From Mesotoga sp. BH458_6_3_2_1 (GTDB lineage Bacteria; Thermotogota; Thermotogae; Petrotogales; Kosmotogaceae): a stretch of 64,000 nucleotides of DNA. Below, in pieces: positions 7,074 to 61,445 of this stretch (the first letter of the stretch is position 1; the number at the start of each line of letters is the position of its first letter). The stretch spans positions 496,001 to 560,000 of the forward strand of contig NZ_JFHL01000002.1 of assembly GCF_003664995.1 (NCBI RefSeq), read 5' to 3'. Under the pieces are notes generated by a model. That model had not been told where the DNA came from and made no database searches. It saw only the letters and a list, made by a program, of their open reading frames with translations. Position numbers and translations under genes: made by a program.

Positions 7074-8723
7074 GTGCTAAGAGATGATCTGGCAATTAAA
7101 GAAGAGTACAAGAGATGGCTTGAAAACTCAACTGAAGAGATGAAAGAGGAGCTAAGGAGATTCTCCCCGAGTGACGTGAGGGAGAGTTTCGCACTGGATC
7201 TGGAATTTGGAACGGGCGGGATGCGGGGAGTACTTGGCGCCGGAACAAATCGGATGAATACTTTCACCGTCAGGAGAGCTACTTTGGGGTTCGGACGTTG
7301 GATCTCTGAAAGATTCAGCAACCCATCCGTCGTTATTGCTTTTGACACCAGACGCAAATCTGCCCATTTCGCTGAGGTTACTGCCGAGGTTCTCTCCTCT
7401 ATGGGTATCAAGGTTCACTTGTTCATTGAACCTATGCCGGTTCCAGTTCTGAGTTTCGCCGTGAGAGAACTGAAAGCCAGCGGCGGTGTTGTGATAACGG
7501 CAAGCCATAACCCACCTCAATACAACGGCTATAAGGTTTACACTTCTGATGGTACCCAGGCAGTTCCCAGGTATGCAGAAGAGATTATAGAGAGAGTTGA
7601 GAAGTCGGATTTCTTTGAGAACTACAATCCTGACAAAGGTTTGATTGAGGAAATTTCGAATTCTTTGCTAGAAGCATTCATTGAAACTGTGAAGAAGAAT
7701 GTTCTGGGGCTTTGCTCCGACTATGATGGACTTAGTGTCGTCTATACGCCTCTACATGGAAGTGGAAATTATCCCGTTTATAAAACCCTTTCAGATCTCG
7801 GTCACAAGGTCAAGCGAGTGGAGGAGCAAACGCTCCCGGATGGTAACTTTCCCACTGTGAAGAGTCCTAATCCCGAGGACTTGAATGCCTTTTCCATGGC
7901 TTTGAGTGATGCAGAAGAAGCGGAAGCCGACCTACTGATTGCGACCGATCCGGACTGTGATAGGTTGGGAATAATGGTGAAGCACGAGGGAACCTACACA
8001 GCTCTTAACGGGAATCAGACGGGTGTAATAATGACTGCCTTCATTCTTGAAAGGTTGAAGGAATCTCTTCCAAATGATCCATTCATTGTTAAGACAATTG
8101 TATCGACCGATCTTGTCAAGAAAATCGCTGCTAAATATAACGTAGAAGTGAAGGAGACTCTTACGGGTTTCAAGTTCATTGGTGAGATCATTGAAAAATC
8201 GGAGGTCGATGGAAAAGGCAGTTATCTCTTTGGTTTTGAAGAGAGCTATGGCTCGCTTTATGGAAGGCACGCGAGGGATAAAGACGCAGTGAGCGCTGCA
8301 GCTTTAGCCTGTACAATTGGGGGTTTTCTGAAACGTTCTGGAAGAACTATGATTGACTATCTCGAAGAGATTCAAGAAGAGCACGGCCACTATCTTGAAG
8401 CTCTTGTGAACAAAGATTATGTTGGAATTGAAGGCAGAAAGAAAATCGAGTCAATAATGAGTAAATTGAGGAGCAGAAGCCCTTTAAAGATGGGGAACGA
8501 AACAATTAGAGAGTTCAAAGATTATTTGGAAGACTCCGGCGATTTACCGGCGGCAGACGTGATTTCCATAGAAATGCAAGACAATTCAAAGATAGTTGTC
8601 AGGCCTTCTGGAACAGAGCCAAAAATGAAGTTCTATCTCATGGCCAGAGGCGATAACGAAGATGAAGCGAGAAATAGAATAGAAGAACTGAGAGAACTGA
8701 TTGAAGGGATTGAGGGCCTATGA
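7074..8723 (+). CDS. phosphohexomutase (phosphoglucomutase/phosphomannomutase)
   Basis: 549 residues from GTG at 7074, preceded by GAAGGTGG; the TTG at 7059 overlaps that site. All four family loops are visible: TASHNPPQYNGYKVY with the phosphoserine, DPDCDRLGI for magnesium, FGFEESYGSLYG for sugar recognition, and RPSGTEPKMKFYL for the phosphate. The length and the start GTGGMRGVLGAGTNRMN match the long PGM2-type enzymes, which interconvert hexose-1- and -6-phosphates and sometimes act on pentose phosphates. With glgA and galT upstream, a role in glucose-1-phosphate supply is likely. It overlaps the next gene by ATGA. Confidence 0.9.
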   Translation: MLRDDLAIKEEYKRWLENSTEEMKEELRRFSPSDVRESFALDLEFGTGGMRGVLGAGTNRMNTFTVRRATLGFGRWISERFSNPSVVIAFDTRRKSAHFAEVTAEVLSSMGIKVHLFIEPMPVPVLSFAVRELKASGGVVITASHNPPQYNGYKVYTSDGTQAVPRYAEEIIERVEKSDFFENYNPDKGLIEEISNSLLEAFIETVKKNVLGLCSDYDGLSVVYTPLHGSGNYPVYKTLSDLGHKVKRVEEQTLPDGNFPTVKSPNPEDLNAFSMALSDAEEAEADLLIATDPDCDRLGIMVKHEGTYTALNGNQTGVIMTAFILERLKESLPNDPFIVKTIVSTDLVKKIAAKYNVEVKETLTGFKFIGEIIEKSEVDGKGSYLFGFEESYGSLYGRHARDKDAVSAAALACTIGGFLKRSGRTMIDYLEEIQEEHGHYLEALVNKDYVGIEGRKKIESIMSKLRSRSPLKMGNETIREFKDYLEDSGDLPAADVISIEMQDNSKIVVRPSGTEPKMKFYLMARGDNEDEARNRIEELRELIEGIEGL

Positions 8724-9328
8724 ATTATAAGTATGCACACATACTTTATCGAGAGGATGACTTTCTCACACCGAAGAGAGCGACTTTTGATCACAGGACG
8801 AAGACGGGTTTCATGACCACCTGGTCTATCGAGCATTCCAGCGAGTTGCTTGAGTACAAGTACTGGAACTGCCTCAGTGCATTTGGTCTTGAGAGTTCTA
8901 CGAGAAGGAAGATCTCTTTCGAAAGAAAGCATAGCGATGCTAATCTTCTCTATTTCAAGTACGAACTCGAAGTCCCGGAAGCTCTCGAGGGGTACTTCGA
9001 TCCAACGACTCTTGAGGTTATATCGAAGAGTCTTTCCCTTCGGGAGACTACTGAAGAAGTGTACAAGATGCTGAAAGATTATGAGCAGGGAGAGTTAAGG
9101 TTCAACGATCGGCGCTTCTCATCCTGGCTTGGTGGGAAAGTCGAAAAACTCCAAATAAGCGATAGTGAGAAAAATGAAATTGAGAACTCGCTGATTAAGT
9201 ATGTGGAGACCATAGTTGGAAGGGTTCTTTGGACTGTCTACAACGGTGATTTGCCAAGAATGGGAAAAGATCTCTCCTCAATGGTGTATCTCTATACTGA
9301 AATGCTTGATCTGACGGCTTCAAAGTAA
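8720..9328 (+). CDS. hypothetical protein
   Basis: 202 residues; not recognised. The start codon shares ATGA with the mutase stop and the gene ends two bases before truA, so it is translated as part of the run. The protein is soluble-looking, with no signal peptide, membrane span or Cys-pair motif. The N-terminal third is rich in aromatic and charged residues; the C-terminal half is predicted mostly helical, with [20 protein letters not shown] as a helical stretch. Its position suggests a housekeeping role, but no function can be assigned. Confidence 0.7.
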
Positions 9329-9330
9329 TC

Positions 9331-10083
9331 ATGAAGAGATTCGCTGCTGTAGTCTCATACGATGGAACTGATTATTTCGGCTTTCAGAATCAGCCCGATA
9401 TGCGGACTGTTCAGGGTGTCTTCGAGGAAGCTCTGGAGAGGATTCATAAGTTCAGTATTTCCAGCCAGGGCGCCGGGCGGACAGATACAGGAGTTCATGG
9501 ATATGGACAGGTAATTGCATTCGATTCAACTCTAGATCGATTGGGTGCTTCCACCATGAAAGACGCTCTAAACGCAAATCTTCCGTCCGATGTGTATGTA
9601 AGGAAAGTACATGAAGTTACCGAGAACTTTAGTCCCAGATTTGCGGCAAAAAACAGAATCTACCATTACTATATTCTGAATTCAAGTGAACCCGACATCT
9701 TTAGAAGAAGGTTTGTCTGGTGGTTTCCCTATCCTCTCGACATTGAATCGATGAGAAGAGCAGGCGGTCATTTGCTGGGGGAGCATGATTTTGCCGCTTT
9801 CAGAACTGGTAAGGACGATAGAAACCCGGTCAGAACTGTTTCGGCCATTAGAATAATCAAAGTCTCACCTCACTTAATTCTCATTAGGGTGGAGGGAATT
9901 TCCTTCCTTAAGAGAATGGTCAGGAATATAGTTGGGACCCTCGTAAAAGTAGGTACGGGAGGCGTTTCGGAAGAATCAGTAGCGGAATTCCTTTCCAGTC
10001 GTGACAGATCTTGTCTCCCGGGAACTGCCCCCCCACAAGGACTAGTCTTCTACAAAGTTGTGTTTGATGAGTTCGAAACGTAG
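9331..10083 (+). CDS. truA: tRNA pseudouridine(38-40) synthase
   Basis: 250 residues, standard length. TruA converts uridines 38-40 of the tRNA anticodon stem-loop to pseudouridine. The N-terminal [15 protein letters not shown] and the catalytic loop [14 protein letters not shown] (with the nucleophilic Asp, about residue 52) are intact, as are [15 protein letters not shown] and [17 protein letters not shown] near the C-terminus. It overlaps the following TlyA-type gene by 17 bases if that gene starts at 10067. Confidence 0.95.
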
Positions 10084-45559: not shown

Positions 45560-46762
45560 ATGCCCGATTTTCGCTATGAAGTAATCAACATCAAAGGAAA
45601 GCCCGAGAAAGGCAAGCTTGCTGCGAATTCCAAACTGGAGGCACTCCAGATCCTCTCGAGCAGAGGCTATATTGTCAGTTCAATTAAGCAGTCGTCATAT
45701 TCGCGCAGCTCGACTAAGGCCTCTTTGTTTCCCGCCTCACAGAAGGAAGTCAGCATCTTTTCGAGACAGTTGGCCACGATGGTTTCATCCGGCGTCAGGA
45801 TAAGAGAGGCACTTCAGGTTCTTTCGACTCAGGTCCTGTTTTCTAGAAGATTCAGAAAGATCATAGCCCGAGTTGTTTTAGATATTGAGGGTGGAATGAG
45901 TTTCAGCGAATCTCTTGAGAGATCAGGTGTTTTTGAACCGCTGTTTACCAATCTTGTTAAGGCCGGTGAGGCAGGCGGGGTGCTTGATGAATCGCTTGAA
46001 AGAGTTGCGGACTTCTATGAGGGAATGGTTGAGCTTCAGAACCAGGTTAAATCGGCTATGGCCTATCCTCTTTTCATGATGGTTTTTGCAGTTGGAATAG
46101 TGGGGATGATTTCCTTCTTCATTCTTCCAAATTTGATCAGCGCTTTTGGAGGAAACTTTAAACCTGAGGGAACAATGGCCATTCTTCTAAAGATGAATGA
46201 TATTTTGAAAAACCAGTGGCCCCTGCTTCTGGTTTTGCTTTTCGGATTGCTGATTGGAGGGTTCTTCTTCTTCAAGAGCAAATACGGTAACATCGTTAAG
46301 GAAAGTATTGGAAAGCTAATTCCTCCAATAAGAACCCTGAGAAACATGACGGCTATGGAGAGATTCACTAGAACAACGGCCGTTCTAGTAGCAAGTGGAG
46401 TTGATCTTCCAACAGTTCTGGAGCTTGCGGGCGAAGTCTCGCAAAGTCCTCGGGTTATGAAGGCTGTAACGAATGCAATAGTCAGCATAAAGGGAGGAGA
46501 GAGCATCAGTGCTTCTCTTGAGCATCAGAAGGTCTTCCCACCGATAGTCGTTAGTATGGTGGCCACGGGAGAGGAGACCGGCAAACTGGACGAAGTCATG
46601 TTCAAAGTTGCCGACTTCTATCACATGCAGGTTCAAAACGCACTCAAGAAACTTGTTTCGCTTGTTGAGCCAATAATGATATTATTTATTGGTGGGTTCA
46701 TTGGTTTTCTGGCAATAACCATATACGGTGCTGTTTTTGCGATGGAGCAAAGTATTGGATGA
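45560..46762 (+). CDS. pilC: type IV pilus/type II secretion inner-membrane platform protein (PilC/GspF)
   Basis: 400 residues. PilC/GspF is the polytopic platform on which the assembly ATPase works. The N-terminal MPDFRYEVINIKGKPEKGKL is followed by two homologous GspF domains: FSRQLATMVSSGVRIREALQ with LVKAGEAGGVLDESLERVAD, and FTRTTAVLVASGVDLPTVLE with MVATGEETGKLDEVMFKVAD. Hydrophobic spans lie near residues 170-190, 220-240 and 370-395. Pilus versus secretion use cannot be told from this protein. Stop overlaps the next gene as ATGA. Confidence 0.93.
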   Translation: MPDFRYEVINIKGKPEKGKLAANSKLEALQILSSRGYIVSSIKQSSYSRSSTKASLFPASQKEVSIFSRQLATMVSSGVRIREALQVLSTQVLFSRRFRKIIARVVLDIEGGMSFSESLERSGVFEPLFTNLVKAGEAGGVLDESLERVADFYEGMVELQNQVKSAMAYPLFMMVFAVGIVGMISFFILPNLISAFGGNFKPEGTMAILLKMNDILKNQWPLLLVLLFGLLIGGFFFFKSKYGNIVKESIGKLIPPIRTLRNMTAMERFTRTTAVLVASGVDLPTVLELAGEVSQSPRVMKAVTNAIVSIKGGESISASLEHQKVFPPIVVSMVATGEETGKLDEVMFKVADFYHMQVQNALKKLVSLVEPIMILFIGGFIGFLAITIYGAVFAMEQSIG

Positions 46763-47139
46763 GTTTAACCGAGCTTTTGTGCTGTCTGGTTTTGGTCTCT
46801 CTTTGCATTAGCGGAGTTGTACTCTTTTCATCTGAAATCATAAGTAGCTTGAAAATTCGCCTCAGCAAAACTGCTTTCGATTCGTTCATTGAAAGACAGC
46901 GTCTTGAGGCTGTTGCTCGTTCCAGGCCTGTAGAGGTTTTCTATGATTATTGGTCGAAGAGGGTGTCTTCGACAACAGGGGCAGTTTTTGAAGACTGTCT
47001 TTGGGGGAACAGAGAGAACTTTAGGATTCGTTTCAATGGGGATGGATCTATTGCCATTCTCAGCGGGTCAACGACATTGAGCTTTGCTGATGGCAGTGTG
47101 TTGACTATCCAGCCGGTAACGGGGAAAGTCACTTATTGA
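46759..47139 (+). CDS. leaderless GspH/FimT-like minor pseudopilin
   Basis: 126 residues starting MSLTELLCCLVLVSLCISGV. The N-terminal hydrophobic helix with Glu at position 5 is that of a mature type IV pilin, and the C-terminal RFNGDGSIAILSGSTTLSF and TGKVTY pattern resembles GspH/FimT. Unusually, no leader precedes it: upstream in-frame codons contain no ATG, GTG or TTG, so Met would occupy the +1 place of mature pilins and no prepilin-peptidase cleavage is needed. GGAG lies about eleven bases before the ATG. Confidence 0.75.
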   Translation: MSLTELLCCLVLVSLCISGVVLFSSEIISSLKIRLSKTAFDSFIERQRLEAVARSRPVEVFYDYWSKRVSSTTGAVFEDCLWGNRENFRIRFNGDGSIAILSGSTTLSFADGSVLTIQPVTGKVTY

Positions 47140-47154
47140 GACTTGGGGGTAGAC

Positions 47155-48192
47155 ATGTTTCAGAGTATGATAACTGCCGTAAATTCAGACGAGGGTTACA
47201 CTGAGATCGTGAGAGCTGTTGTTGAAGGTCGGTATCTTAAGCCCGTCTTTTCTGTGCTCAGAATGGGGGTAAACTCACTTGAAGAATCAACCAAAGTCTT
47301 CAGGGAGAACAATACAATACCTGCCGACGAGATTTTTGTTACTGCCTTTCATCCAAGAGATGTTGTCTTTCAGCATCTTGAGGTTCCCCGTGTAAAGTCG
47401 ACGAAGAATTTGCTCAATGTCGCGAGCTTCAAGGCTGCTTCTCAGTTTTCATTACCTCCGGACGAAGTAAATGTAGCCTGCCTGAACTCAATAGCCTCAC
47501 TAAAAAGTGGACTTGTTCCAGCCTTTGTTATAACCAAGAGAAAGGCCTTGTTTGAATTCATTGGAAGATTGACGGCGAAGAGCTTTCCTGAACCGAACAT
47601 CGTTGATGTTAAGCCCTTCTCTATTTTCAAGATGGCTCAAACAAGCGTCTTTGAAGGCAGCAATATTGTTTTCATAGTTGATAGAAGCTATTCGCTTCTC
47701 CTGACATTAAGGGGAGAAGAAATTGTGGGCCTTAATTACATAAGCGATGGTTTTGATCAGGTGGCAAGCGGTTTCAAGGAGGACAATTCGCTCTCTCCAA
47801 ACACGAATATTCAAAGAGAGTTTCTGATTGGTTCTAAGGCTTATTATGATTCACTAATTGAAGAAGCTTCGGAAAGACTCGAGGGACTGATCTCCTATCA
47901 GTTAAGGATGTATCTTACCAACACGTTGTCAAACTCGCCAAACACTTCTGCGGCTGATGAGGCTCTCTTCACCAGGTTTTTTGTTGCAGGACAGTCAAGC
48001 CTTTCTACAGCCGTTTATTCAAGAGCTTTCCAGAGAATTCTCGGAGACGAAACAGAGGTAGTTAGCATGCCTCTGAAAATGAAGGAAACGAGCGGGATAA
48101 CTTATATTTCGGTTGGACTGCTTATGAGAGGTGGTGAGATGCTTGGTCGACGTAAACTTGTATTCAAGGAAGAAGCGGGTCTCAAGGCTTAA
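47155..48192 (+). CDS. PilM-like pilus assembly protein
   Basis: 345 residues from ATG at 47155 after GGGGGTAGAC; TTG 47143 is less likely. PilM is an actin-like cytoplasmic protein that binds the N-terminus of PilN. FVTAFHPRDVVFQHLEVPRV, NIVFIVDRSYSLLLTLRGEE and GITYISVGLLMRG occupy the places of the actin-fold strands, but the nucleotide motifs are poorly conserved. The call leans on the order PilC-pseudopilin-here-PilN-PilO. The last 50 bases overlap the next gene. Confidence 0.6.
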   Translation: MFQSMITAVNSDEGYTEIVRAVVEGRYLKPVFSVLRMGVNSLEESTKVFRENNTIPADEIFVTAFHPRDVVFQHLEVPRVKSTKNLLNVASFKAASQFSLPPDEVNVACLNSIASLKSGLVPAFVITKRKALFEFIGRLTAKSFPEPNIVDVKPFSIFKMAQTSVFEGSNIVFIVDRSYSLLLTLRGEEIVGLNYISDGFDQVASGFKEDNSLSPNTNIQREFLIGSKAYYDSLIEEASERLEGLISYQLRMYLTNTLSNSPNTSAADEALFTRFFVAGQSSLSTAVYSRAFQRILGDETEVVSMPLKMKETSGITYISVGLLMRGGEMLGRRKLVFKEEAGLKA

Positions 48193-48715
48193 GTATTCTC
48201 TAATAGTTCTGCTGATAATTGTTCTTCTGGTTCTGGGGTCCCGTTTCTTCGTTACCCAGGCATTTGAGACAAGGTTGAGGCAGGTTTCAAGGATGAAAGG
48301 CTACCTCTTCGACAATACCGGGACGTATCTGACTGGGAATCTGAAAGCAGACATCGAAATGATCTACAACAAAAAGCAAGAGTATACGGTAATGAGAAAT
48401 AAATTAAGCAAGCAGGTAAATGATCTTCGCGTGCATGTTAGCTCAAAATCAGTCGAAATGGACGTTTTCAGAACTGTAGAGACATATCTCGAAGATGAAA
48501 ATGCTATGAAGACAATTGCTTCTAGAATTCAATTTGAGAATGGAGTCGGCAATTCCTTCTATTATCTGATTTTTGAAGGCGAGGATGTTTCTTTCCCCAC
48601 ACCAAAAAGCACACCGACTCTTCTTGCCAATCCGAGTGTGAGGGGAAATCTGGATTTTGCTGAGCTCTACTCTCTTCAACTCGTCGATCTTGAGGTGGGT
48701 GGTCATCATGAGTGA
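48143..48715 (+). CDS. PilN-like inner-membrane protein
   Basis: 190 residues from TTG at 48143, nine bases after AGAGGTG; GTG 48131 and 48134 are alternatives. The start MVDVNLYSRKKR matches the conserved INL...-type N-terminus through which PilN binds PilM. One membrane span (about residues 17-38, YSLIVLLIIVLLVLGSRFF) and a coiled-coil-like periplasmic part follow. It overlaps the PilM-like gene by 50 bases and the PilO-like gene by eight. Confidence 0.65.
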   Translation: MVDVNLYSRKKRVSRLKYSLIVLLIIVLLVLGSRFFVTQAFETRLRQVSRMKGYLFDNTGTYLTGNLKADIEMIYNKKQEYTVMRNKLSKQVNDLRVHVSSKSVEMDVFRTVETYLEDENAMKTIASRIQFENGVGNSFYYLIFEGEDVSFPTPKSTPTLLANPSVRGNLDFAELYSLQLVDLEVGGHHE

Positions 48716-49318: not shown

Positions 49319-49759
49319 ATGGAGAAGGTTGTTCTAATTATCGTTGTTTCTATAACTTTGTTAGTTACGGGTGGGGTTCTGCTGACATTTCTTCTGGAAC
49401 CGGTGGAAATTGCCGATGTTGCGGCGAGCAGAATTAGAATCGATCCTATCGATACTACCAGAGTGGTAAGCAGCGTTACTTTGGGCAATCACTTTCTTCC
49501 TCTTTATGCAAGTCCTTTGGAAGTTATAAGGTCCATGCTGGAAGTGGGCGAAGAGGCTGCCGATGTCAAATATGTAGCTTACTATAGATTGAACAAAGTT
49601 GATTATGCGGTTCTTGAAGCAGGACAGTCACAGATTACAGTAAGAGTTGGAGAACAGGTGGCTCCCTCTTACATCGTATACGGAATTACGGAATTTGCTG
49701 TGTTGCTTAACGACACGAGCACGAACAGCTTTGTTGTTGTGAAGTACTTTAGATCGTAA
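49319..49759 (+). CDS. PilP-like inner-membrane-anchored protein
   Basis: 146 residues; ATG at 49319. An N-terminal anchor (KVVLIIVVSITLLVTGGVLL) is followed by a beta-rich periplasmic domain ending with VGEQVAPSYIVYGITEFAVL. Its place between a PilO-like gene and the secretin suggests PilP or GspC, which link scaffold and secretin. No lipobox Cys is seen, unlike typical PilP; GspC-like proteins use such an anchor. Function is inferred from position. Confidence 0.5.
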   Translation: MEKVVLIIVVSITLLVTGGVLLTFLLEPVEIADVAASRIRIDPIDTTRVVSSVTLGNHFLPLYASPLEVIRSMLEVGEEAADVKYVAYYRLNKVDYAVLEAGQSQITVRVGEQVAPSYIVYGITEFAVLLNDTSTNSFVVVKYFRS

Positions 49760-49778: not shown

Positions 49779-52700
49779 GTGATTCGTGTGAGAAGAATAG
49801 CGGTCATATTTTTAGTTCTGGGTTTCTTCTGTATTGGAGTCTCTAATCAGTTGAATTCTGTTATACCATCTATGGATGCTGAATCTGTAACAGTGACGAT
49901 GATCTTCAACGACACAGTCACCGATTACAACATTCAGTCAAATCCTTCCAAGACTATATACTCCCTGGCGCTCAACGGAGTTAGTGGAAGAGATATGAAT
50001 CTCCCGCTCCGAATGGGTCCCGTGGAGGGGCTGTGGACCAGACAGGATCCGAAGAGACTTTCTGTCAATGTTGCGTTGTTGATTCCAGCAATTGATGAGC
50101 CCGAAGTCAAGATAATGGGGAATGTAGTCACTTTGAGATTCTTCAGATCGAAGATCAACGTGGATATCGAAAAGTTCACAACATATGGTATGACTGTTTC
50201 CACTGCGATGACGTACCTTTTCTCAGAAGAGATGCTTGATCTTTCTTATGTCATATCTCCTAGTGTCAGAAACGAGGAGGTCATTGTCGGTTTTTCTCTT
50301 GCGATGCCCGAGGACATTCTTCGAAACATTCTTACATCACTCGGAGATAGGATAGCATACTCCTATTTCACCGATGGAACATTCTATCTGGGGACCCCTG
50401 AAGAAGTACAGGATCTGGTAAACGCCTTCTGGAAGACTTACATAGGTGTGGAGTTCAACGCCGAAGGAGAATCTGTTTCTGAACAGATCGAAAGGTTAAG
50501 AAAGGCACTTCCTGTTAACAGTTTCATAGAGTATCTGCCAAACGAGGCTTCACTAATGGTTTTTGGAGATCTTCAGACTCATATGACACTTTCTGCCGCT
50601 CTCACGACAAACACAGTCACTAGGGAATACACGGTTCCATGGGAGATCACCAACATTGACATCGAACCTCTCACTGCATACTATGAACTGGCTATAAAAC
50701 TAAATTCAACGCTGTTCTCTGATAGCCTTACAGTAACTGGCATTCCAGAGTTCAACAAACTCATTTTTTCTGGAAATGCTGCTCAAGTTGATGCTCTGTA
50801 TGAGTATATAGATCTTTACAAGGAGTACGTTACATCACAAGACCTCGACTCCAGTAAGACGAGAAAGACGATAACTCTACCTGACAACTTCTTTCTGATT
50901 GAAGATATATTGAAACTGGGTAGCGTATCAGGATCTGGTTTGACAGAAGACAAGACTCTGGTAGGGACGATTTTCAGTATTCTTCAGAGCTATGCGGTAT
51001 ACGAGGATCTCTCAGTCGACAGAACCTTTGAACCCATCGGAAAGGTAACTTTCGAATTACCAAATTACCTCGTTCCGGTTCTTCAGAAGGTCACAGATTC
51101 GTTCTCTGAGATCTCGACAGATGTGTCTTACACTATTGTAAATTATCACCTAACTATAGAAGAATCAATACTTTCGCAGGTTCAACGTATTACCGGGGCA
51201 GCAATAGAGTCACTGGGAGAAAGAAAGGGATACATCATCAAGGGTTCTAAGAGCTCAATCGGAACGGCTGAGTATCTCCTTTCGCTTTTCACAGGGATTG
51301 CTTTTGAAAACTATGCAAGTACATACCTCGAGTTGAAGGCTAATGATTCCTTTGAGGAAGTATCCGCTTTCCTTAGAACTTTCTACGCTGCTCAGGGTCT
51401 TGTTGAAGACGAGTATACAGTTGAGCAGATCGCAGACAGATTGGTCTTCATGTACGCTCCTTCTGAGATTATGGAGAAAGCGGTTATTGAACTTGAGCAG
51501 CACGAAAAGCAGATATACAGAATTACAAGGCAGTCTATCCTTGAAATCTCACCCGAAGTCTATTCTTCGGGTTTGGGTGAGTTGCTCCAGACGATCCTTG
51601 TCGAAAACGAGACGGTCAGCTTCATTGAGTCAGCAGGTCTTCTCGTGATTAGAGCTTACCCGGACAGACTTGCGGAGATAGAGAGCGTTATCGAAGAGAG
51701 AATCCCAAGAATAACTGAAATGGTTGAGAACCGCATCTCAAGTCAGGAAACCCGGTTGTCTCTACAGATAATGGCGATCCCTGGCTGGGATATCGAGAAG
51801 TTCAGGGCTTATCTGAACGATTTCCTTGGATCCGATCTTTATTCGGAAATTACACTTACAACATCTGGCAGCGGCTATATAGTAATTGCGTCACAGCCAG
51901 TACTGGAAGCGATTTCTACAGAAGCAGAAAAACTGAGAGGATTTGAGAATCCCTCTTATAGACTGGAGTCATCAATTCCATCCCTCGCTCAGTTCGAGCT
52001 TCTTCTGGAAAAACTGGGTATCGCCGTGACAATTGTTCCTGTGGAGAACCAGTTCATGATAGTTGGTTCAAAGGAGAATGTTGAGGAGGCCTCTAAGCTC
52101 GTCCGACAGCTTAGCAGCGGCCTTCCTGTTCAGGGTGATGTTTCGGACACTGCGGTGGATTACGAGTTCACATTTATTAACCTCCCCTATGGAGAAGTCG
52201 AGGGGATAAGTGAACTTCTAAACAAGCTCAGTTTATCTGTTGAATTTGTCAACACTCCTACAGGTGTGGCAGTTGTAGCTACGAAAGAGAGACTTGAGAA
52301 GGCAATGGAGGTCATAAACTCTGTCCTGTCAAGAATCGAGACAATCGAGACCGGTCCGAGAAGTTACAGTCTGATAGATATTGAACCGGCCATGGTAAGT
52401 AGTTTAAGTGAAATACTGTCCCGGTTGGGCTACGAAATAGATCTGGTGGAGACCCCGGCAGGAATAATCGGAATCGGTGTTGAGGCGCAGTTAGCTAGAG
52501 CCAAGAGCATAGTTGAAGAGATCTTGAAGAAGGAGACATCATCACTTCCCCAACAGGGAGATGGGGATCGATCATACTTGATCATTTCTTCAAAGCCTGA
52601 AATAGAGATCGCCTCGCTCAACTCCGTAATCAGTGTCTTCAGTTTCGATCTCGTAATAACTGCTGTCTACGACAAAATAGTCGTCGTTGGAGACAGCTAT

Positions 52701-55700
52701 GATCTTCAGCTCTTCAGAGGATTGTACAACGAGATTCTTACCTCTGAAAGTGTCGAAGGGGCCTTTGTCAGCAAAGAGCTTTCCGGAGTTCCCGGTTGGG
52801 ATTCTGACCGACTACTTTCCTATCTTGGAGTCGTTCTTGGAGTTGAGAAAACGGCCAGTGTTTCACTAGTTCAAACCGCAAGCGGATATATAATCAACTG
52901 CCCTCAGTCAATACTGGAGAGCATTGAAAGCGAATTTGAGAGACTGCGAAGTATTGAGAGCCCTTCTTATTCGATTGAGAGAAGAATGCCCACACTCGAT
53001 GAGATGAACTCTCTTCTGTTGAGACTGGGAATCATTGTAGACATTCTGAAAGTGGATGATTATTTTGTAATCGTTGGATCTTCCGCAAGTGTTGAACAGG
53101 CGAAGGAGCTTGTTTCAAGGCTTCTAGAGGTTATCGGTGACGAATCTGAAAGTAAACAAACTGCATTTCAGGTCTCCAGGATCTCAAGTGAAGATATGTC
53201 TGCTTTTAATGAAATCTTCTCGAGTATCGGGATGCAAGTGAAATTACTTGAATCCCCTTCAGGTATTCTAATTATTGGAAACGGCGATGAAGTCTCAAGA
53301 GCGATTGAAGTTGCAGATTCAATTCTTGAGAAGCGCGCTTCAACCGTTGATTCGGAAATCGTATTCGATTTTGTGCCTGTTTCTTCCGATGAAATTCAAG
53401 ACTATTCCTTGATTTTTGAAAAGATGGGACTGAATGCTGAATTGCTATCTTCTCCATCTGGTGTAATTGTGATTGGATCTTCTGAAGAAGTAGCAGAAGC
53501 AAAATCGGTAGTGCAGTTGATTGCCGAACAGAAACAGCAGTTCGATACGACTGAAGAGAAGAGAAACGACTCGACCTTTGTCAGAAGAGTCGCGGGATGG
53601 AGCGATGAAGTGTTCTCCAGCTATCTGAGAGACTTTCTGAATGAGGATCAGTATTCCCGAGTATCAATATCTCCATCGGTAAGCGGCTACATTGTAGCGG
53701 GTCCCGTTGAACTTCTTCAATCAATTGAGGCCGAGGTCAGTCGTCTTCAAGAGATTCAAGATCCTCACTTCGTTGTTCAAAGAGGACTTCCACCTCTTGA
53801 TCAGCTTGAGACACTAATCGAAGCACTGGGCATCAAAGTTGAGATAATCCCGGTTGAGGATAAGTATCTGATTGTTGGTAATCGAGAAAGTGTGGTTCAG
53901 ACAGATCAAATCATCGACCAATTGATAGAGGCAATATACCCAGAAGGAAAGCCCGTCGAAGATGCAGTGGTGTCGAAAACGTTCATCTTTTTGCCGGTAA
54001 GACCCGAAGATGCAGCTCCTCTGGAAACAGTTATGGAGAGGCTCGGAATCACATCCGAACTAGTTCAGATCTCGACGGGAGTCATTGCAGTCGGTTCTGA
54101 GAAGGAGCTTCTGAAAACACTTGACGTGGTTGAGTCGGTAATGGCTCATTCCGAAAGTGTCACGGCCGAACTGGAACTGAATTACAGATTTGTTGATGTT
54201 CGATCAGATTCAATAGAGCAACTTCTGCCCATAATCGAGCGGTTGAACATCGGAATCGAACTGCTTGACACTCCCACCGGTGTAGTCGCAATAGGTTCAG
54301 ATCCTGAACTGGATCGAGCAGAAGAGTTGATAGAGGCGATTAACGCGAGAGCGACTGAAGATGTTCCGCTTCAGGACAAGTACGAGAGTTATCTCCTTCT
54401 TCCCATTTCTGCGGGAATTACTGTTCAGTCTCTGGAACCGGCGCTTGAACTGCTAGATTATCGAGTCTTTGCAGTAAGCGTTGCTGATAAAATTATCGCG
54501 ATCGGCGGTGAAGAGGATCTTCTTAAGTTCAAGGCTCTATACATGCAGCTTCAGGCAGTGGAAGTAGACAGAGAAGAAAGGATCTCTCTCGATATCAAGG
54601 CAATTCCTGGATGGGACATTGTTAGGGTAAGCGAGTATCTGAGACTATTTCTTGGAGTCGATGACTTTGACAGGATTTCTATAGTCCCTTCTTCCACGGG
54701 ATTCGTTGCTTTAATACCAAGAGCTCTCATGGACACGGTAGAAACTGAAATATCAAGGCTCAGAGAGTTTGAAGATCCGGCCTTCACAGTGCTTGAGAGA
54801 ATACCTCCCGTTGAAGATCTTGAAGGGCTGCTTTCCAGACTTGGAGTCCTTGTTGATCTGGTAAGCATGGGAAGTTCCACAATAGTAATTGGTTCCGGTG
54901 ATGATGTTCAGCGCACAGGCAGGATAATAGATCAGCTCTTGGATTCGGTGACCTATGATGTTACCGCACCCGAAGCGATTGAATACAGCGTTCTGGACAT
55001 ATCTGCTGACGATATGAGTAGCTTCAACGCAATTTTCGAGCGACTTGCAATCGATGTGTCTCTTATTTCCTCCCCCTCCGGGGTCATAGCCATCGGGTCG
55101 CAGCAGGCAGTCGCAAGAACGGCGACAGTGGTTGAAGACATTCTTAGCAGGAGGACCACCCAGCAGGTGTATGAGCCGATTTATGCCTTCACGGGAATAC
55201 CAAGTGCAGACATGAGTAGCTACCAGACTATTCTTGATAAGCTGAACTCGGGAGTCGAGCTTTTGCAATCGGCCACTGGAGTTCTTATGATCGGCGACGG
55301 AGACAAGGTGCAGGAAGCGCTCAAGACAGTCAATGCTATTCTTGAGAGAGAAGCGTTGTTTGACGAATCAGAAGGTCAGCCAGACAGGGTCTCAAACGTT
55401 GCGGCCCTCGTCCCCGGATGGAACGATGACAAGTATGCCAGTTATTTTACTGACTTTCTCGGTATCGACGATTTCTCGAGAATCTCTATCACTCCTTCTA
55501 CCAGTGGATATATTGTGATCGGTCCCGAAGAAGTAGTGTCGAGATTGGTTGCCGAGGCTTCCAGGTTAGCCGAAATAGAGGATCCATTCTTCGTTATTGA
55601 GGATTCCCTTCCCGCTATCGATCAACTCGACACTCTGCTTGACAGATTAGGCCTTAGGGTCACGATATTGCCTGTAGAGAACAAGTATCTCATAGTGGGC

Positions 55701-58700
55701 ATCAAGGAAAGTGTTGAGAAGACGGTCGAGCTCATTAAGATGTTCAGAAGTGATGTGGAGGCTCCCGTAAGCTCGAGAAAATACGACTATTTGATAATGC
55801 CCGCAAATGAAGGCAGTTTCGAGACAATACGACAGGTGCTCTCTGAATTGAAGATCGATGCCACGGCTTTGAGTTTCGGGAGTAACGTAATACTTGTCGG
55901 TTACGGCGAGGATCTTGAAGATGCAGCAAGTGTCGTAAACTCAATAAATGAAAGAACGGTAATTCTAGCGACTGACAAGGAGCTGAAATACTCGTTCACA
56001 GAGATCCCGAACGACAGAATTGATGAGTTTACTGCCATACTTGACAGCCTTAAACTTGATGTTGAACTTCTCTCTTCTCCTTCGGGGGTCGTCCTTGTTG
56101 GAACCGAGGAAGAGGCGGCAAAGGCGAATGAAGTGATTCGTTCAGTACTTTCAAAGGCCGAACAGGACGAAACTGTCGAGTCGAGATTTTTCAACAACCC
56201 GGCTGGATGGGAAGAGGGAAAGCTTGTTGCGTATTTGAGAGGCTTCCTGGGAGAGAAGGACTGGTCGAAGGTTAGTGCAACTCCTGTCCAGTCAGGATAT
56301 CTATTGGTGGGCCCATCAGAAATTCTGAACAGGATACATTCAGAGACGGTGAGGTTAGCGGGCCTTGAAAAGCCTTACTACGAGATAGTCGAGACGGTTC
56401 CTTCTATCCAGAATCTTCAAGCTATGCTGGAGAAGATGGGTCTTGCCGTCACGGTTGTCACCGTGGACGGGAGATCGATGGTAATCGGACCGGAAAGTGA
56501 TGTCCTTCAGACTGTCAAGGTATTTGGTGAACTTGCCGAAGGGATTGTCCTTCCCAGGGGCGACGAACCCGATGTCTTTGACTTTGTAGAAATTCCGTCT
56601 GAAGAAGTGGAAAGCTTCAGAACAATCTTCGCAAGGCTTGGAATCCGAGTCGATCTGCTCAGCACACCTACGGGAGTCATAGTCGTTGGCCAAAAAGACA
56701 GTATTTCAAAGGCCCTTGAGACCATGACCTCAATTCTCTCTCGCAGAGAGGTGCAGGTTGCTGACGGCGAGCAAAGCTATGTGGTTGTGGAGATCCGTGA
56801 AGGCTTCGATCTCGCCTCAGCACAGTCGGTTATCTCGGCTTTCAGTATAGACTCATATCCTCTTTCTGTGGCGGGAAAGCTTGTGATCATAGGTGCCGAA
56901 AAGGAAATTGCAAGATTCGTACAGCTAAGAAACGACATCATAAGCGAGCACAAAGTGACCGTTATCGTGCCTCGTGAAGTCACTATAGAAGAACTCAACG
57001 GGATAATCAGTACGCTGGGACTAGAAATGTCGGTTCTCGAAATCCGAGGCAGCTTCGTCGTGTACGGTAAGGAGGGAGAGATCGAACAGGTTAAGGACAT
57101 CCTTTCCCGGCTTACGTCCGATGAGCCTTCCGATAAGACTCAGGAGATGCGGATTTTCACGGGGATTTACCAGAGCACTGATTTTCTAAATCAGCTTCTC
57201 TCCAGTATGGGCTCTTCTTTGAAGATCTACGGAGAGGGCGACAGAATTGTGGCGGTTGGTAGTGCGGACGATATAGAAATGTTTGAGAGTCTTATGCAGG
57301 AGATCGGTTCTGAACCGTCAGCAGTGGAATTGACAGCGAAGTTCTATCCTAGGCTTGAAGGCTGGACTGGAGAGACTCTTGCCGAGTTCTTCCGGGCTAT
57401 GAACTTCGCAGTAGAGGTCTTCCATGAGAGCAGTCAGGGATACCTGTTGATAGGTCCAGCCGATGAGCTTAATAGAGTTCCAGATATTATGGACGGTCTT
57501 GAACTTAAAACAAGGAGACTGACTACTCTGTATCCTGTTCCATCGGGAATGACTTTCGAAGAACTCAGGGAGATTCTGGTGTCGGCGGGATTCAGTTTCT
57601 CATATACGAGACTGGGACAGAGTATGTCGATTTCCGGGCTTGAAGATGATGTAAATATGGCTGTTGCCCTCCTCGACGAAGTGATCAGAAGCGGATTGGG
57701 AAAGGGAGTCTCTTACAGGCTTATAGAATTACCTGTCGACCTGACTCTTGAGAAGCTTGAAAAGATCATGAGCGACATGGCCCTTGACATCTCCTCGGTG
57801 CAAGTTGACGGGGAAGTTATGCTAATAGGTCCCGACAGCGATCTGAGGACTGCGAAGGAGATAGTTGAATATCTCACGCCTGAAGATCCTTCCGTTGACG
57901 AGCAAAGAATCTACTCGGTAATTCCGCTTGGTGAGGGACTGGCGCTCGCGGAGATCTCCGCCCTCGTTGAAAGTCTCTCCCTAAGTGTTGAGATCCTTCC
58001 TGTGGGAGGAGATATCGTAGTAATAGGTACTGAAAGCAATGTGGATCGTTTTAGAGAACTTGTAAGCTCTATCTCAGCAACTCTTGGAATTGAAAGTGTT
58101 GAGAGTCCTGAATACTCCATCGTTGAGAAGGTGGAAGAGATCTCGATCGACCAGTTCAGAGAGCTGCTCGCATCTCTCAACATACCTGTGAAGATCGTAG
58201 AGGTTTCCGATTACCTGGTCTTTATTGGTTCTAGTGAGAATAACGGCAAGGCAGTCGATCTCTTTTCAAGATTCGAGACGGAAGACAAAGAGCCCGTAGT
58301 GGAGGAAATTGAGTTTATCACTCTGTCGTTGCCAGAGGGATTTGATCTCAATTCTCTCTCGACAATATTCGATAAACTTGACTTCAAAGTCGATCTAAAT
58401 TCCGTCGGCAATGTCTTACTCTTGATCGGAAGGAAAGATTCTATCGAAAATGCCCAGGCGCTTGTTGAGAAGCTTGTGCAGGTTTCCACAGGAGAATCGG
58501 GCGAAAAGAACGTCTTTGAGATTCTTGAGCCTAAGGAAGGCGTATCTGCCGAGTTGCTGAATCAGCTTTTCAGGCTTATTGGAATTGATGTAGAGATACT
58601 CGAAGGCGATACTGCGCTTGTATTTGTGGGAAGCCAGACCGATGTTGAGATGGCACTCGAGGTCTACGATTCTCTCGGGAAAACGGCACAAGTTGATGAA

Positions 58701-61445
58701 GGACCTCTGTCGTACACAATAACGATTCTTCCGAAGAACCTCACGCCAGGCCAGCTTGAGACAGCTTTCGATTCGATTCAGATACCGGTCGGCGTAATTG
58801 AAGCCGGTGATTACGCGATAATTGTCGGAACAAAGTCCTCCCTTGCTAGAGCACAGGAGCTCGTTTCCTCCCTGAGGATTGGAATTGACGCGAGCGGAAC
58901 GTCGGCCGACGGTTCGATATCGTACGTGACATTTGGCAAGCCGGAAGGGACAGAAATTGACCAGTTCGAGACAATTGCAGGACTAATGGAGCTTAAACTG
59001 AAATTCGAGCCGGTCGGAGACAGGGTCTTCATGATAGGTACGGGGGAGGATATAGGCGAATTCGAGCAGGTTCTCAACGGGCTTGTGAGCGAGAAGGCCG
59101 GAATAGTAAATGAATTCAGATTCGCAAAGAAGCTTTCCGGAATCGATGCAGATACGCTCGAAACTTATCTGCTCGCGAAAGAGATTTCGCTTTCCGGAGT
59201 GTTCGATGTGAGCGGTGGGTACCTTATAATTGGCACCAGAGAGTCCATTGACGAAGCCCAGGCAGTAATTGATTACCTTGCAGACAATCAGCAGGTTTAC
59301 TTCGCATATGTAGATTTGCCTTCGACATTGACGTCTGAAGTACTCCAGGCAATGGTTAATGAACTGATGCTTGAAGTAACGTTTACTCAAATCACTCAGT
59401 CAAGGTATTTGTTGATAGGTCAGCTAAACGACATTGATAGCATGAAGAGTATTCTGTCAGATGCTGTAGTCGGAGAATCAGTGTTTCTAGATTACGAGAT
59501 AGTTGTTGTTAGTCAAGAGTTCAACGATTTTCTTGTTGATGAAAGAATCAGAGAGGATTTGGATAGTTCTTTGGATAGCATTGGTGTATCTACTTACATA
59601 GGCAAGTTTGATGACCGACTTCTGATAGTGGGCGAGAAAACACATGTAGATGTAGCTAAGAAGCTGATTAGTGAGCTTGATAAAGCGGCGTCGCTTTCTG
59701 GGATAGAAGAGAAGATAAAGATTGAAGATCTTCCACCCGTCAGTGGCTGGAGCATAGAGCAAATAACACAGTTCCTGGAGGCGGCGGAGATTCAGCTAAG
59801 ATCGATTATAGAGTACTCGGGCAGACTCATCGGAATTGGAACTCAAGTCGGACTTGAAAACGCGAGAGCCGCGCTCAGTATCCTCGCAGTAGATTCGAAG
59901 CGCGAATCGGTAAGAATCGAGAAAACTCTAGTTACCGAGATGCAACTCAGAGAGATTATCTCCAAGCTAGACCTCAAAGTTGAGTTTGTGGACCTCGAAC
60001 GCCAGTGGCTGCTAATCGGTGAACCAGAGTCACTTATGATTGTCATTAGGACAGTTGAAGAGGCGGCCGCCGACAAGGAGATCTCAAGATACATCACCGA
60101 TCTGACTGTCAATCCTCAAGAACTTGCCGATCTTCTTAGAGAATCAATCGAGGGAATAACTGTTCAGACCTTCGACGACCTTCAGATGCTGTTGATCAAG
60201 TCAAAGAGCTCAGCTCTGCTCGATGCGGCGGAGAAGATGGTCAAGGACGTTCAGGATTCGAGAAAGGCCGTCGATCCCCTGGAGAAAGGAGTCTTAGTAA
60301 CGGGTTCCACGGTCAGAATAAACGTGGCCGACCAGGATCTAGAGTCTCTTCTCAGGATAGTTGCTGATAAACTCGGTATTTCACTCCTTTTTGTGGACAA
60401 GATTGTCGAGAACGTGACCATGTCTGTTGAAGGCCTTACCTGGGACGGGCTGGTGAAGGTTATCAATGCTACAAAGCCTGTCGAGATAAGCAAAATCGAT
60501 GACATCTACGCAGTCACGAAGAAGGAACAGAAGGCCGGAGAAGAGCCTACCGATGTTGAGCTTGTTTACCGTGTCTATCACAATGTCGAAGAGGTAACAA
60601 GATTGATTGAGTTCTACGGAGGCGAGGTTCTTTCCGATCCAGTGAACGGCTACATTGTTGTGAGAGGGCTTGCGAAGTCCAGGGTAGACAACATCTTCGA
60701 TGAGATCGGATCTTCTCTCTCGCAGCCGAAGAAGCAGGTAAGAATAGAGACAAGACTTGTCGATAAATCCCTTGTGGATGAGCTTCAGAGAGAATTCAAG
60801 ACTGCGATAGGCGTTAACAGTCCTGAGATTCTGCTAGAAAACGGCTCGATCGATCTAGACTTCAGAATCATTGACTATCTGGATATAACACAGCTCATCG
60901 ACGATATTGTCAATACTGCGACAGCAAGGATAGAAGCTGATCTTAGCAATAGAGACAGTGATTCCGATCTCATATCCAGCCCTTCCATTGTCTCCATGAG
61001 TGGCGAAGAGGCAAAGATTCACATTGGAGATACAATTCCATATCTCGTTCGAACAATTGAGTACATCGAGGGTAACCCGGTGGAGATAGAGACTATCGAG
61101 TACCTTAATACCGGAGTGGAGTTGAGAATAACTCCTACCGTCAACGATGACGGAAAGATCCTGCTTGACCTCTACATAAAGGTTAGTGAGCCCGAGAAAT
61201 ATGTCGATGGAACAAGAACTCTTTATGGTGAGAAGACCCGGGAAGCAAATAGCAGGTTAATAATCTCAAATGGGAACACTTTGACAATTGGAGGACTAGT
61301 AGCAAATAAGGATACGGTGACAGTCAATAAGATGCCTTTCTTAAGCGATCTACCCTTCATTGGCAAGTTGTTCACTACGGAGAACAGAACATCCGACAAG
61401 AGAGAATTGGTTATCTTCATCACCGCGGAGGTGGTTGAGCCGTGA
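49779..61445 (+). CDS. giant repeat-expanded secretin (PilQ/GspD-like), 3,888 residues
   Basis: Starts at GTG 49779 (or GTG 49788, six bases after GGGGTG). A signal peptide (residues 5-24) is followed by an AMIN-like beta domain (about 30-125), an STN-like domain (about 125-225) and several divergent N-type domains to about 660. Residues about 661-3504 are roughly 43 units of about 66 residues, each a beta-alpha-beta-beta-alpha pattern like secretin N1 domains. Then come an STN domain (about 3505-3585), one normal N1 domain ending YGGEVLSDPVNGYIVVRG plus a short stretch, and the barrel (about 3650-3888) with ISSPSIVSMSGEEAKIHIGD, LNTGVELRITPTVNDDGKIL and the end PFLSDLPFIGKLFTTENRTS. Usual secretins have 400-900 residues. 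Last gene of the pilus-like operon; the stop overlaps the Memo gene. Confidence 0.9.
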   Translation: MIRVRRIAVIFLVLGFFCIGVSNQLNSVIPSMDAESVTVTMIFNDTVTDYNIQSNPSKTIYSLALNGVSGRDMNLPLRMGPVEGLWTRQDPKRLSVNVALLIPAIDEPEVKIMGNVVTLRFFRSKINVDIEKFTTYGMTVSTAMTYLFSEEMLDLSYVISPSVRNEEVIVGFSLAMPEDILRNILTSLGDRIAYSYFTDGTFYLGTPEEVQDLVNAFWKTYIGVEFNAEGESVSEQIERLRKALPVNSFIEYLPNEASLMVFGDLQTHMTLSAALTTNTVTREYTVPWEITNIDIEPLTAYYELAIKLNSTLFSDSLTVTGIPEFNKLIFSGNAAQVDALYEYIDLYKEYVTSQDLDSSKTRKTITLPDNFFLIEDILKLGSVSGSGLTEDKTLVGTIFSILQSYAVYEDLSVDRTFEPIGKVTFELPNYLVPVLQKVTDSFSEISTDVSYTIVNYHLTIEESILSQVQRITGAAIESLGERKGYIIKGSKSSIGTAEYLLSLFTGIAFENYASTYLELKANDSFEEVSAFLRTFYAAQGLVEDEYTVEQIADRLVFMYAPSEIMEKAVIELEQHEKQIYRITRQSILEISPEVYSSGLGELLQTILVENETVSFIESAGLLVIRAYPDRLAEIESVIEERIPRITEMVENRISSQETRLSLQIMAIPGWDIEKFRAYLNDFLGSDLYSEITLTTSGSGYIVIASQPVLEAISTEAEKLRGFENPSYRLESSIPSLAQFELLLEKLGIAVTIVPVENQFMIVGSKENVEEASKLVRQLSSGLPVQGDVSDTAVDYEFTFINLPYGEVEGISELLNKLSLSVEFVNTPTGVAVVATKERLEKAMEVINSVLSRIETIETGPRSYSLIDIEPAMVSSLSEILSRLGYEIDLVETPAGIIGIGVEAQLARAKSIVEEILKKETSSLPQQGDGDRSYLIISSKPEIEIASLNSVISVFSFDLVITAVYDKIVVVGDSYDLQLFRGLYNEILTSESVEGAFVSKELSGVPGWDSDRLLSYLGVVLGVEKTASVSLVQTASGYIINCPQSILESIESEFERLRSIESPSYSIERRMPTLDEMNSLLLRLGIIVDILKVDDYFVIVGSSASVEQAKELVSRLLEVIGDESESKQTAFQVSRISSEDMSAFNEIFSSIGMQVKLLESPSGILIIGNGDEVSRAIEVADSILEKRASTVDSEIVFDFVPVSSDEIQDYSLIFEKMGLNAELLSSPSGVIVIGSSEEVAEAKSVVQLIAEQKQQFDTTEEKRNDSTFVRRVAGWSDEVFSSYLRDFLNEDQYSRVSISPSVSGYIVAGPVELLQSIEAEVSRLQEIQDPHFVVQRGLPPLDQLETLIEALGIKVEIIPVEDKYLIVGNRESVVQTDQIIDQLIEAIYPEGKPVEDAVVSKTFIFLPVRPEDAAPLETVMERLGITSELVQISTGVIAVGSEKELLKTLDVVESVMAHSESVTAELELNYRFVDVRSDSIEQLLPIIERLNIGIELLDTPTGVVAIGSDPELDRAEELIEAINARATEDVPLQDKYESYLLLPISAGITVQSLEPALELLDYRVFAVSVADKIIAIGGEEDLLKFKALYMQLQAVEVDREERISLDIKAIPGWDIVRVSEYLRLFLGVDDFDRISIVPSSTGFVALIPRALMDTVETEISRLREFEDPAFTVLERIPPVEDLEGLLSRLGVLVDLVSMGSSTIVIGSGDDVQRTGRIIDQLLDSVTYDVTAPEAIEYSVLDISADDMSSFNAIFERLAIDVSLISSPSGVIAIGSQQAVARTATVVEDILSRRTTQQVYEPIYAFTGIPSADMSSYQTILDKLNSGVELLQSATGVLMIGDGDKVQEALKTVNAILEREALFDESEGQPDRVSNVAALVPGWNDDKYASYFTDFLGIDDFSRISITPSTSGYIVIGPEEVVSRLVAEASRLAEIEDPFFVIEDSLPAIDQLDTLLDRLGLRVTILPVENKYLIVGIKESVEKTVELIKMFRSDVEAPVSSRKYDYLIMPANEGSFETIRQVLSELKIDATALSFGSNVILVGYGEDLEDAASVVNSINERTVILATDKELKYSFTEIPNDRIDEFTAILDSLKLDVELLSSPSGVVLVGTEEEAAKANEVIRSVLSKAEQDETVESRFFNNPAGWEEGKLVAYLRGFLGEKDWSKVSATPVQSGYLLVGPSEILNRIHSETVRLAGLEKPYYEIVETVPSIQNLQAMLEKMGLAVTVVTVDGRSMVIGPESDVLQTVKVFGELAEGIVLPRGDEPDVFDFVEIPSEEVESFRTIFARLGIRVDLLSTPTGVIVVGQKDSISKALETMTSILSRREVQVADGEQSYVVVEIREGFDLASAQSVISAFSIDSYPLSVAGKLVIIGAEKEIARFVQLRNDIISEHKVTVIVPREVTIEELNGIISTLGLEMSVLEIRGSFVVYGKEGEIEQVKDILSRLTSDEPSDKTQEMRIFTGIYQSTDFLNQLLSSMGSSLKIYGEGDRIVAVGSADDIEMFESLMQEIGSEPSAVELTAKFYPRLEGWTGETLAEFFRAMNFAVEVFHESSQGYLLIGPADELNRVPDIMDGLELKTRRLTTLYPVPSGMTFEELREILVSAGFSFSYTRLGQSMSISGLEDDVNMAVALLDEVIRSGLGKGVSYRLIELPVDLTLEKLEKIMSDMALDISSVQVDGEVMLIGPDSDLRTAKEIVEYLTPEDPSVDEQRIYSVIPLGEGLALAEISALVESLSLSVEILPVGGDIVVIGTESNVDRFRELVSSISATLGIESVESPEYSIVEKVEEISIDQFRELLASLNIPVKIVEVSDYLVFIGSSENNGKAVDLFSRFETEDKEPVVEEIEFITLSLPEGFDLNSLSTIFDKLDFKVDLNSVGNVLLLIGRKDSIENAQALVEKLVQVSTGESGEKNVFEILEPKEGVSAELLNQLFRLIGIDVEILEGDTALVFVGSQTDVEMALEVYDSLGKTAQVDEGPLSYTITILPKNLTPGQLETAFDSIQIPVGVIEAGDYAIIVGTKSSLARAQELVSSLRIGIDASGTSADGSISYVTFGKPEGTEIDQFETIAGLMELKLKFEPVGDRVFMIGTGEDIGEFEQVLNGLVSEKAGIVNEFRFAKKLSGIDADTLETYLLAKEISLSGVFDVSGGYLIIGTRESIDEAQAVIDYLADNQQVYFAYVDLPSTLTSEVLQAMVNELMLEVTFTQITQSRYLLIGQLNDIDSMKSILSDAVVGESVFLDYEIVVVSQEFNDFLVDERIREDLDSSLDSIGVSTYIGKFDDRLLIVGEKTHVDVAKKLISELDKAASLSGIEEKIKIEDLPPVSGWSIEQITQFLEAAEIQLRSIIEYSGRLIGIGTQVGLENARAALSILAVDSKRESVRIEKTLVTEMQLREIISKLDLKVEFVDLERQWLLIGEPESLMIVIRTVEEAAADKEISRYITDLTVNPQELADLLRESIEGITVQTFDDLQMLLIKSKSSALLDAAEKMVKDVQDSRKAVDPLEKGVLVTGSTVRINVADQDLESLLRIVADKLGISLLFVDKIVENVTMSVEGLTWDGLVKVINATKPVEISKIDDIYAVTKKEQKAGEEPTDVELVYRVYHNVEEVTRLIEFYGGEVLSDPVNGYIVVRGLAKSRVDNIFDEIGSSLSQPKKQVRIETRLVDKSLVDELQREFKTAIGVNSPEILLENGSIDLDFRIIDYLDITQLIDDIVNTATARIEADLSNRDSDSDLISSPSIVSMSGEEAKIHIGDTIPYLVRTIEYIEGNPVEIETIEYLNTGVELRITPTVNDDGKILLDLYIKVSEPEKYVDGTRTLYGEKTREANSRLIISNGNTLTIGGLVANKDTVTVNKMPFLSDLPFIGKLFTTENRTSDKRELVIFITAEVVEP
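51759..53570 (+). repeat. nine-unit block, copy 1 (W-B-C-D-E-W-B-C-D)
   Basis: From the unit around Trp670 to the one before Trp1274, 604 residues. Its order matches copy 2 at 53571-55391: both contain the optional E unit in the first but not the second half. This suggests duplication of a 1.8-kb block. Confidence 0.65.
53571..55391 (+). repeat. nine-unit block, copy 2 (W-B-C-D-E-W-B-C-D)
   Basis: From the unit around Trp1274 to the one before Trp1881, 607 residues. The E-type unit (around residues 1535-1595, with VSVADKIIAIGG) corresponds to that of copy 1 (TAVYDKIVVVGD). A four-unit W-B-C-D group follows. Confidence 0.65.

Follow-up and report, generated by a model that had tools for sequence, protein, structure and literature searches.

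Gene and Genomic Context

Within the window, i.e., the whole stretch of 64,000 nucleotides of Mesotoga sp. BH458_6_3_2_1 DNA that was analysed, a giant gene for a PilQ-type secretin follows a row of genes resembling those of type IV pilus machines (Table 1). The encoded protein is about five times longer than the usual outer-membrane pore protein of type IV pili, and its GTG start codon is preceded at a distance of about 8 nt by the Shine-Dalgarno-like motif GAGGGTG. The C-terminus, described in the initial annotation as a normal secretin, is recovered by the Pfam barrel profile PF00263 (residues 3725–3887, E 1.6e-40, 138.9 bits at a cut-off of 27.5), and by this profile match the protein belongs to the secretin superfamily. 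A search of this Mesotoga genome for secretins returned no second one.

The order pilC/gspF, pilin-like gene, four small genes, secretin and Memo gene is kept in most of the phylum. In size and topology, the four small genes match pilM, pilN, pilO and pilP. These assignments are weak; in Pfam searches, no match of these genes or of their relatives rose above chance, and the best PDB matches of the PilP-like profile were PilP 2ivw (E 0.078) and 4av2_M (E 0.23), both weak. Two ATPases of the T2SSE family, PilB- and PilT-type in size, are encoded elsewhere in the genome. At the counterpart locus of Thermotoga maritima, pilQ (TM0088) and pilC (TM0094) have been listed as candidate competence genes (PMC5637354). 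A Petrotoga-like lineage with a short secretin (L045:7336-12274) has lost the pilC and pilM/N/O/P-like neighbours, and its secretin gene lies between an Hsp90-like gene and the Memo gene.

Table 1. Features of the secretin locus, with positions in the window, and the basis on which each was assigned.
Feature	Position	Strand	Basis or remark
pilC/gspF, inner-membrane platform gene	45560..46762	+	PF00482 E 2.4e-58; TIGR02120 E 4e-80
Pilin-like gene (ComGD/GspH-like)	46759..47139	+	NF040982 E 0.003, under its cut-off
pilM-like gene, 349 aa	47143..48192	+	Conserved placement and gene order within the phylum
pilN-like gene, 194 aa, single TM helix followed by a coiled coil	48131..48715	+	Position, topology
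pilO-like gene, 215 aa, single TM helix	48657..49304	+	Position, topology
pilP/gspC-like gene, 146 aa, TM helix and HR-like domain	49319..49759	+	Weak profile matches
Giant PilQ-type secretin gene	49779..61445	+	GTG start, 3,888 aa, single intact frame
Signal peptide-like N-terminus, residues 1–22	49779..49844	+	Sequence reading: RVRRIAVIFLVLGFFCIG
AMIN domain, residues ~24–122	49848..50144	+	AlphaFold2 model m4da125fac501 and structural matches
First N0-like domain, residues ~127–213	50157..50417	+	AlphaFold2
Six N1-like domains preceding the array, residues ~217–654	50427..51740	+	AlphaFold2 secondary structure
Array of 42 beta-alpha-beta-beta-alpha units, residues 664–3424	51768..60050	+	Self-built HMMs; fold of seven units
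Six super-repeats of 4–5 units	51768..56939	+	PGW-type unit leads each
Single units without super-repeat, residues 2394–3424	56958..60050	+	Self-built HMMs
Further N1-like unit, residues ~3434–3494	60078..60260	+	Sequence pattern only
Canonical PilQ N0, residues ~3505–3581	60291..60521	+	Profile against PDB
Last N1 (N3-type) domain, residues ~3592–3651	60552..60731	+	TIGR02519 match; Thermotogota alignment
Secretin barrel domain	60732..61442	+	PF00263 at 3725–3887

The protein was classed with the PilQ secretins of type IV pili on three grounds, namely its AMIN domain, the canonical PilQ N0 beside the barrel and the pil operon. The PilQ and GspD profiles score alike and far under their own cut-offs: TIGR02517 (GspD) is the top NCBIfam model by score with 136.7 bits (cut-off 351.35), and TIGR02515 (PilQ) reaches 125.4 bits (curated cut-off 284.35), its best stretch being the C-terminal part of the model only. 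Membership in GspD, the secretin of type II secretion systems, was rejected on this score and on the presence of AMIN. A secretin serving a type II-like secretion system instead of a pilus, as the top GspD score and the homology of pilC and gspF could suggest, is very improbable in view of the AMIN domain and the PilQ-type N0, the comparable PilQ score and a candidate PilT-type retraction ATPase in the genome.

Domain Architecture

The AMIN domain, whose fold binds peptidoglycan in other proteins, was recognized by the resemblance of its model to AmiC 4bin (Z 13.1, rmsd 2.1 over 99 residues) and to the PilQ AMIN domains 3jc8/4aqz (Z 12.3–12.7), and the first N0-like domain by matches to EscC 3gr5 (Z 8.6) and MxiD 6rwk (Z 8.3), which are N0-N1 matches, and to PupR 6ovk (Z 8.7). 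Two stretches of PF03958 (Secretin_N; residues 526–640, E 3.1e-12) coincide with the last two of the six domains preceding the array. Toward the C-terminus, the profile of the canonical N0 retrieved PilQ 4ar0 from the PDB (E 3.3e-8), besides 6w6m, 6ve2 and HofQ 2y3m, and TIGR02519 (MshL) matches residues 3621–3886 over model positions 5–290 of 290.

The array is flanked by the AMIN/N0-like head on one side and the canonical N0 on the other, and its units were located at residues 664–3419 with HMMs made from the protein's own repeats. Six units are of a PGW type and 36 of a second type, with a mean spacing of 66.1 ± 4.4 aa; the PGW-type lead units begin at residues 664, 1000, 1269, 1605, 1878 and 2142. 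The initial annotation had put the number of units at about 43, in good agreement with the 42 counted in the array, and six more N1-like domains before and two after it bring the total to about 50 N1-type domains, next to two N0-type domains and one AMIN. Its claim of a hugely enlarged N-module on a protein ending in a secretin barrel is thereby borne out. Known secretin pores contain one to six copies of the N1-type domain.

The AMIN–N0–N1–secretin order of PilQ is thus present, as in the proteobacterial proteins of Neisseria meningitidis, Vibrio cholerae and Pseudomonas aeruginosa, to whose family the N0 profile match also points; in contrast to these, an N0-like and about 49 N1-like domains separate AMIN from the canonical N0 in the Mesotoga protein. 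An AMIN-like N-terminus, the second N0 and the barrel form a frame common to all Thermotogota secretins aligned, among which the alignment suggests that mainly the number of N1-like domains varies.

Integrity and Conservation of the Array

Genes rich in repeats are often misassembled, and the initial annotation had named an artefactual repeat number as one of two findings that would refute its own reading. This is ruled out by the lack of DNA repeats and by the orthology of the units in four species. In fact, neither tandem repeats (Tandem Repeats Finder) nor any DNA repeat of at least 30 nt (repeat search, seed 12) was found within the gene, which rules out a collapse or multiplication of reads at this place. 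All 42 units pair reciprocally, in the same order and position, with those of three other Mesotoga species at 46–100% identity, while the best paralogues of array units within the protein are only 23–52% identical. The secretin was present in 10 of 10 Mesotoga genomes searched. Its frame spans 3,900–3,921 aa in the three other species, where the contig permits, and relatives in single- or two-contig genomes are equally long or longer than 3,888 aa; one relative assembled as a single contig has 4,575 codons from stop to stop (4,560 aa from the first start) and 52 array units. For the two closest species, the only pair usable given the saturation of synonymous sites in all others, dN/dS of the array is 0.11. 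Based on this value and on the unit-by-unit orthology, the array is probably held in order by selection. An inflated repeat number, an erroneous gene model or a pseudogene, for which the apparently broken copy in Kosmotoga pacifica might be cited, is therefore a negligible prospect for a single open frame with this conservation, free of DNA repeats of 30 nt or more and matched by relatives from genomes of one or two contigs.

The secretin gene of K. pacifica (L036:4569-12427) looks broken in the published assembly, with a 1,374-aa N-terminal frame, a segment of about 1 kb and a 977-aa C-terminal frame. The segment encodes N-units on its minus strand (8522-9541) and is flanked by two direct, perfect repeats of 245 bp. 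Since this genome was assembled from 454/Illumina reads (PMC5217533), a misassembly is likely.

Fold of the Repeat Unit

For residues 1260–1720, AlphaFold2 predicts seven beta-alpha-beta-beta-alpha units (pLDDT 79.8, pTM 0.37), and for residues 22–728 the AMIN, the N0-like and the six N1-like domains (pLDDT 78.0, pTM 0.57); with these pTM values, the relative orientation of the units is unfixed in both predicted models. The units had previously been taken as N1/KH-like, together with the proposal to compare them by Foldseek. Searched with the seven-unit model, Foldseek placed GspD at the top, with several other best matches being GspD-type secretins, and the top rows of the VIA list were N-domains of InvG, GspD and XcpQ, followed closely by KH domains (Z 6–7.6). 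Predicted fold and both lists thus agree with that proposal, the nearest structures being secretin N-domains. The high rank of KH domains is expected, the N1 fold being itself KH-like, and a KH-type RNA-binding role was rejected in view of the signal peptide and the secretin barrel. Z values of 6–7.6 are middling for small single domains, and their weight comes from the fact that the protein ends in a secretin.

When profiles were compared with each other, the array units gave 56% with secretin N-domains of other phyla, 46% with the Secretin_N region of the protein itself and 0.2–3% with three PilM/N/O-like control profiles. Secretin_N (PF03958) was not matched inside the array (E 2.1), and a sequence search of the PDB with the array profile found no secretin. 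The kinship of the array with secretins shows in the fold and, weakly, in the comparison of profiles. The N-modules of GspD (type II) and InvG (type III) share the fold of the unit; unlike the Mesotoga protein, they have one to three such domains and no AMIN.

Length Variation in the Thermotogota

A comparison of homologue lengths across the phylum, as suggested in the initial annotation, revealed a graded series from about 700 to 4,560 aa: 694 aa in the Petrotoga-like lineage, ~900–1,570 aa in most others, 2,631 aa in a K. olearia-like lineage and 3,888–4,560 aa in Mesotoga. The expanded array is not unique to one protein, and length grades across the phylum. Other Thermotogota proteins of the TM0088 type, with 694–1,570 aa, resemble the Mesotoga secretin in the N-terminus, the second N0 and, in most cases, the operon, and differ from it, as does the Kosmotoga protein, in length. 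The genus names in this comparison and in that of OmpA1 below are those which we take to apply to the lineages. Outside the phylum, 30 genomes were examined, and their longest secretin frame had 1,723 aa, the second longest 1,022 aa. The former stems from a Bacillota metagenome assembly (L130, G090:C30:4583-5077), and the Mesotoga unit profile matches it weakly, at only three places. Many Thermotogota have a second secretin of about 390 aa, perhaps TM1117-like, which is absent from the Mesotoga genomes searched.

Recent copies among the extra units of the 4,560-aa protein (23/27 100%, 13/26 95% and 24/28 86% identical) and a 202-nt stretch duplicated at 86% identity in the K. olearia-like gene point to growth by duplication of blocks. 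The array thus appears to have grown in blocks of several units, followed by divergence and fixation, and selection would now fix the order of the units.

Secretins and PilQ as such are well known. In the open-licence literature searched, no description came up of a form whose N-domains number nearly ten times those of the longest described secretin, and no report on giant or multi-N-domain secretins or on those of Mesotoga or Kosmotoga, an absence that is in itself no proof.

Discussion

We consider it most plausible, at a probability of roughly 55%, that the protein is the PilQ of the Mesotoga pilus machine and that its ~50 N1-type domains stack into a very long periplasmic conduit. The C-terminal barrel would sit in the outer membrane and the AMIN/N0 head would extend to the peptidoglycan and, at the inner membrane, to the short PilP-like protein; between barrel and head, the N1-type domains could pile up as a 12–15-mer with one ring for each domain, and the pilus, perhaps also incoming DNA, would pass through. 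A subunit of this kind would weigh ~0.4 MDa and the oligomer 5–6 MDa.

The closest parallel is PilQ of Thermus thermophilus (757 aa, N0–N5, C13), in which each N domain forms a ring and six rings extend over 35 nm, about half of the ~70 nm periplasm (PMC5745081, PMC4463427), and an extended PilW has been proposed to bridge the remaining gap (PMC13039148). Both are pilus secretins of a thermophile with a wide periplasm, lengthened by beta-alpha-beta-beta-alpha domains; Thermus, however, has six rings, whereas Mesotoga has ~50 N1-type domains and a short PilP-like partner in place of an extended PilW. This partner stays at ~146–193 aa across the phylum vs. a sixfold variation of the secretin, so the secretin itself would have to cover the distance. 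MCE ring stacks such as LetB bridge the envelope with tandem domains, in seven rings and for lipid transport. The likeness to the Mesotoga secretin is an analogy only, the fold being unrelated.

What could keep so long an array under selection is, as we propose, the toga, the loose and sheath-like outer membrane of Thermotogota, whose distance from the cell is large and greatest at the poles. In T. maritima, it keeps ~50 nm away from the cell through the OmpA1 coiled coil of 316 residues, and balloons at the poles (PMC3387000). Scaled in this way (316 residues per ~50 nm; PMC3387000), the coiled coil of Mesotoga OmpA1, a 562-aa protein whose gene adjoins tyrS, predicts a spacer of ~76 nm. OmpA1 (SLH and coiled coil) has 562–587 aa in Mesotoga, 529 in K. 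pacifica, 414 in the K. olearia-like lineage and 402 in Pseudothermotoga, and secretin length rises with this spacer (Spearman rho 0.90, n = 9 lineages, uncorrected for shared descent). K. pacifica and the K. olearia-like lineage have equal secretins and unequal OmpA1. As an exact ruler, OmpA1 was rejected, the slope being wrong with ~40 nm of added spacer for ~47 added units, and the correlation is kept as weak support. The SLH domain also occurs in Mesotoga in conserved fusions to a 5′-nucleotidase/calcineurin-like phosphoesterase (L158, L140, L151).

Assuming ~52 rings at 2.5–4 nm each, a range derived from Thermus and from the value used in the initial annotation, a linear Mesotoga stack would measure about 130–200 nm, vs. 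the ~100 nm estimated there. This exceeds the ~76 nm gap, which puts linear, rigid stacking along the side of the cell in doubt. Either the machines stand at the ballooned poles, or the array is partly a slack tether, or the rise per unit is smaller. The secretin of T. maritima's relatives, with ~9–11 N-domains at 3–4 nm, would roughly match the ~50 nm gap.

One alternative is therefore a flexible tether, in which ring formation is confined to a few N domains directly beneath the barrel and the other ~45 units hang as 12–15 bead-on-string chains. Like elastic cables, these would link the outer-membrane channel across a varying gap to the peptidoglycan and to the inner-membrane platform. A contour of 130–200 nm across a ~76 nm gap is harmless if slack, the toga does move away from the cell (PMC3387000, PMC5487896), the orientation of the tandem domains is unfixed in the seven-unit model, and the AMIN domain lies at the far end. 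We nevertheless regard the tether as rather unlikely: N domains of N1 fold form rings in known secretins, the units, regularly spaced at 66 ± 4 aa, are joined by short linkers, neither long nor disordered, and the conservation of identity and order unit by unit exceeds what a simple string would need. The same disproportion to the OmpA1 spacer could also be explained by a compact, coiled or wide collar, e.g., around the barrel or on the peptidoglycan, whose length is unrelated to spanning. Such a collar is improbable, being without precedent among secretins and at odds with strictly serial, regular units and with the rank correlation of secretin and OmpA1 lengths.

In its fullest form, the conduit would comprise all ~50 (up to ~60) N1-type domains of each subunit in a tunnel of >100 nm from outer to inner membrane, to which we give somewhat less than even odds. 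If true, the length of this tunnel is set by the number of repeated domains, and to our knowledge it would be the longest envelope-spanning protein channel. Ranging from ~700 to 4,560 aa within a single phylum, the series is moreover a natural experiment relating domain number to envelope spacing and pilus function, and it offers, in culturable and non-pathogenic organisms, a route to the question of how a pilus machine crosses a wide and variable periplasm.
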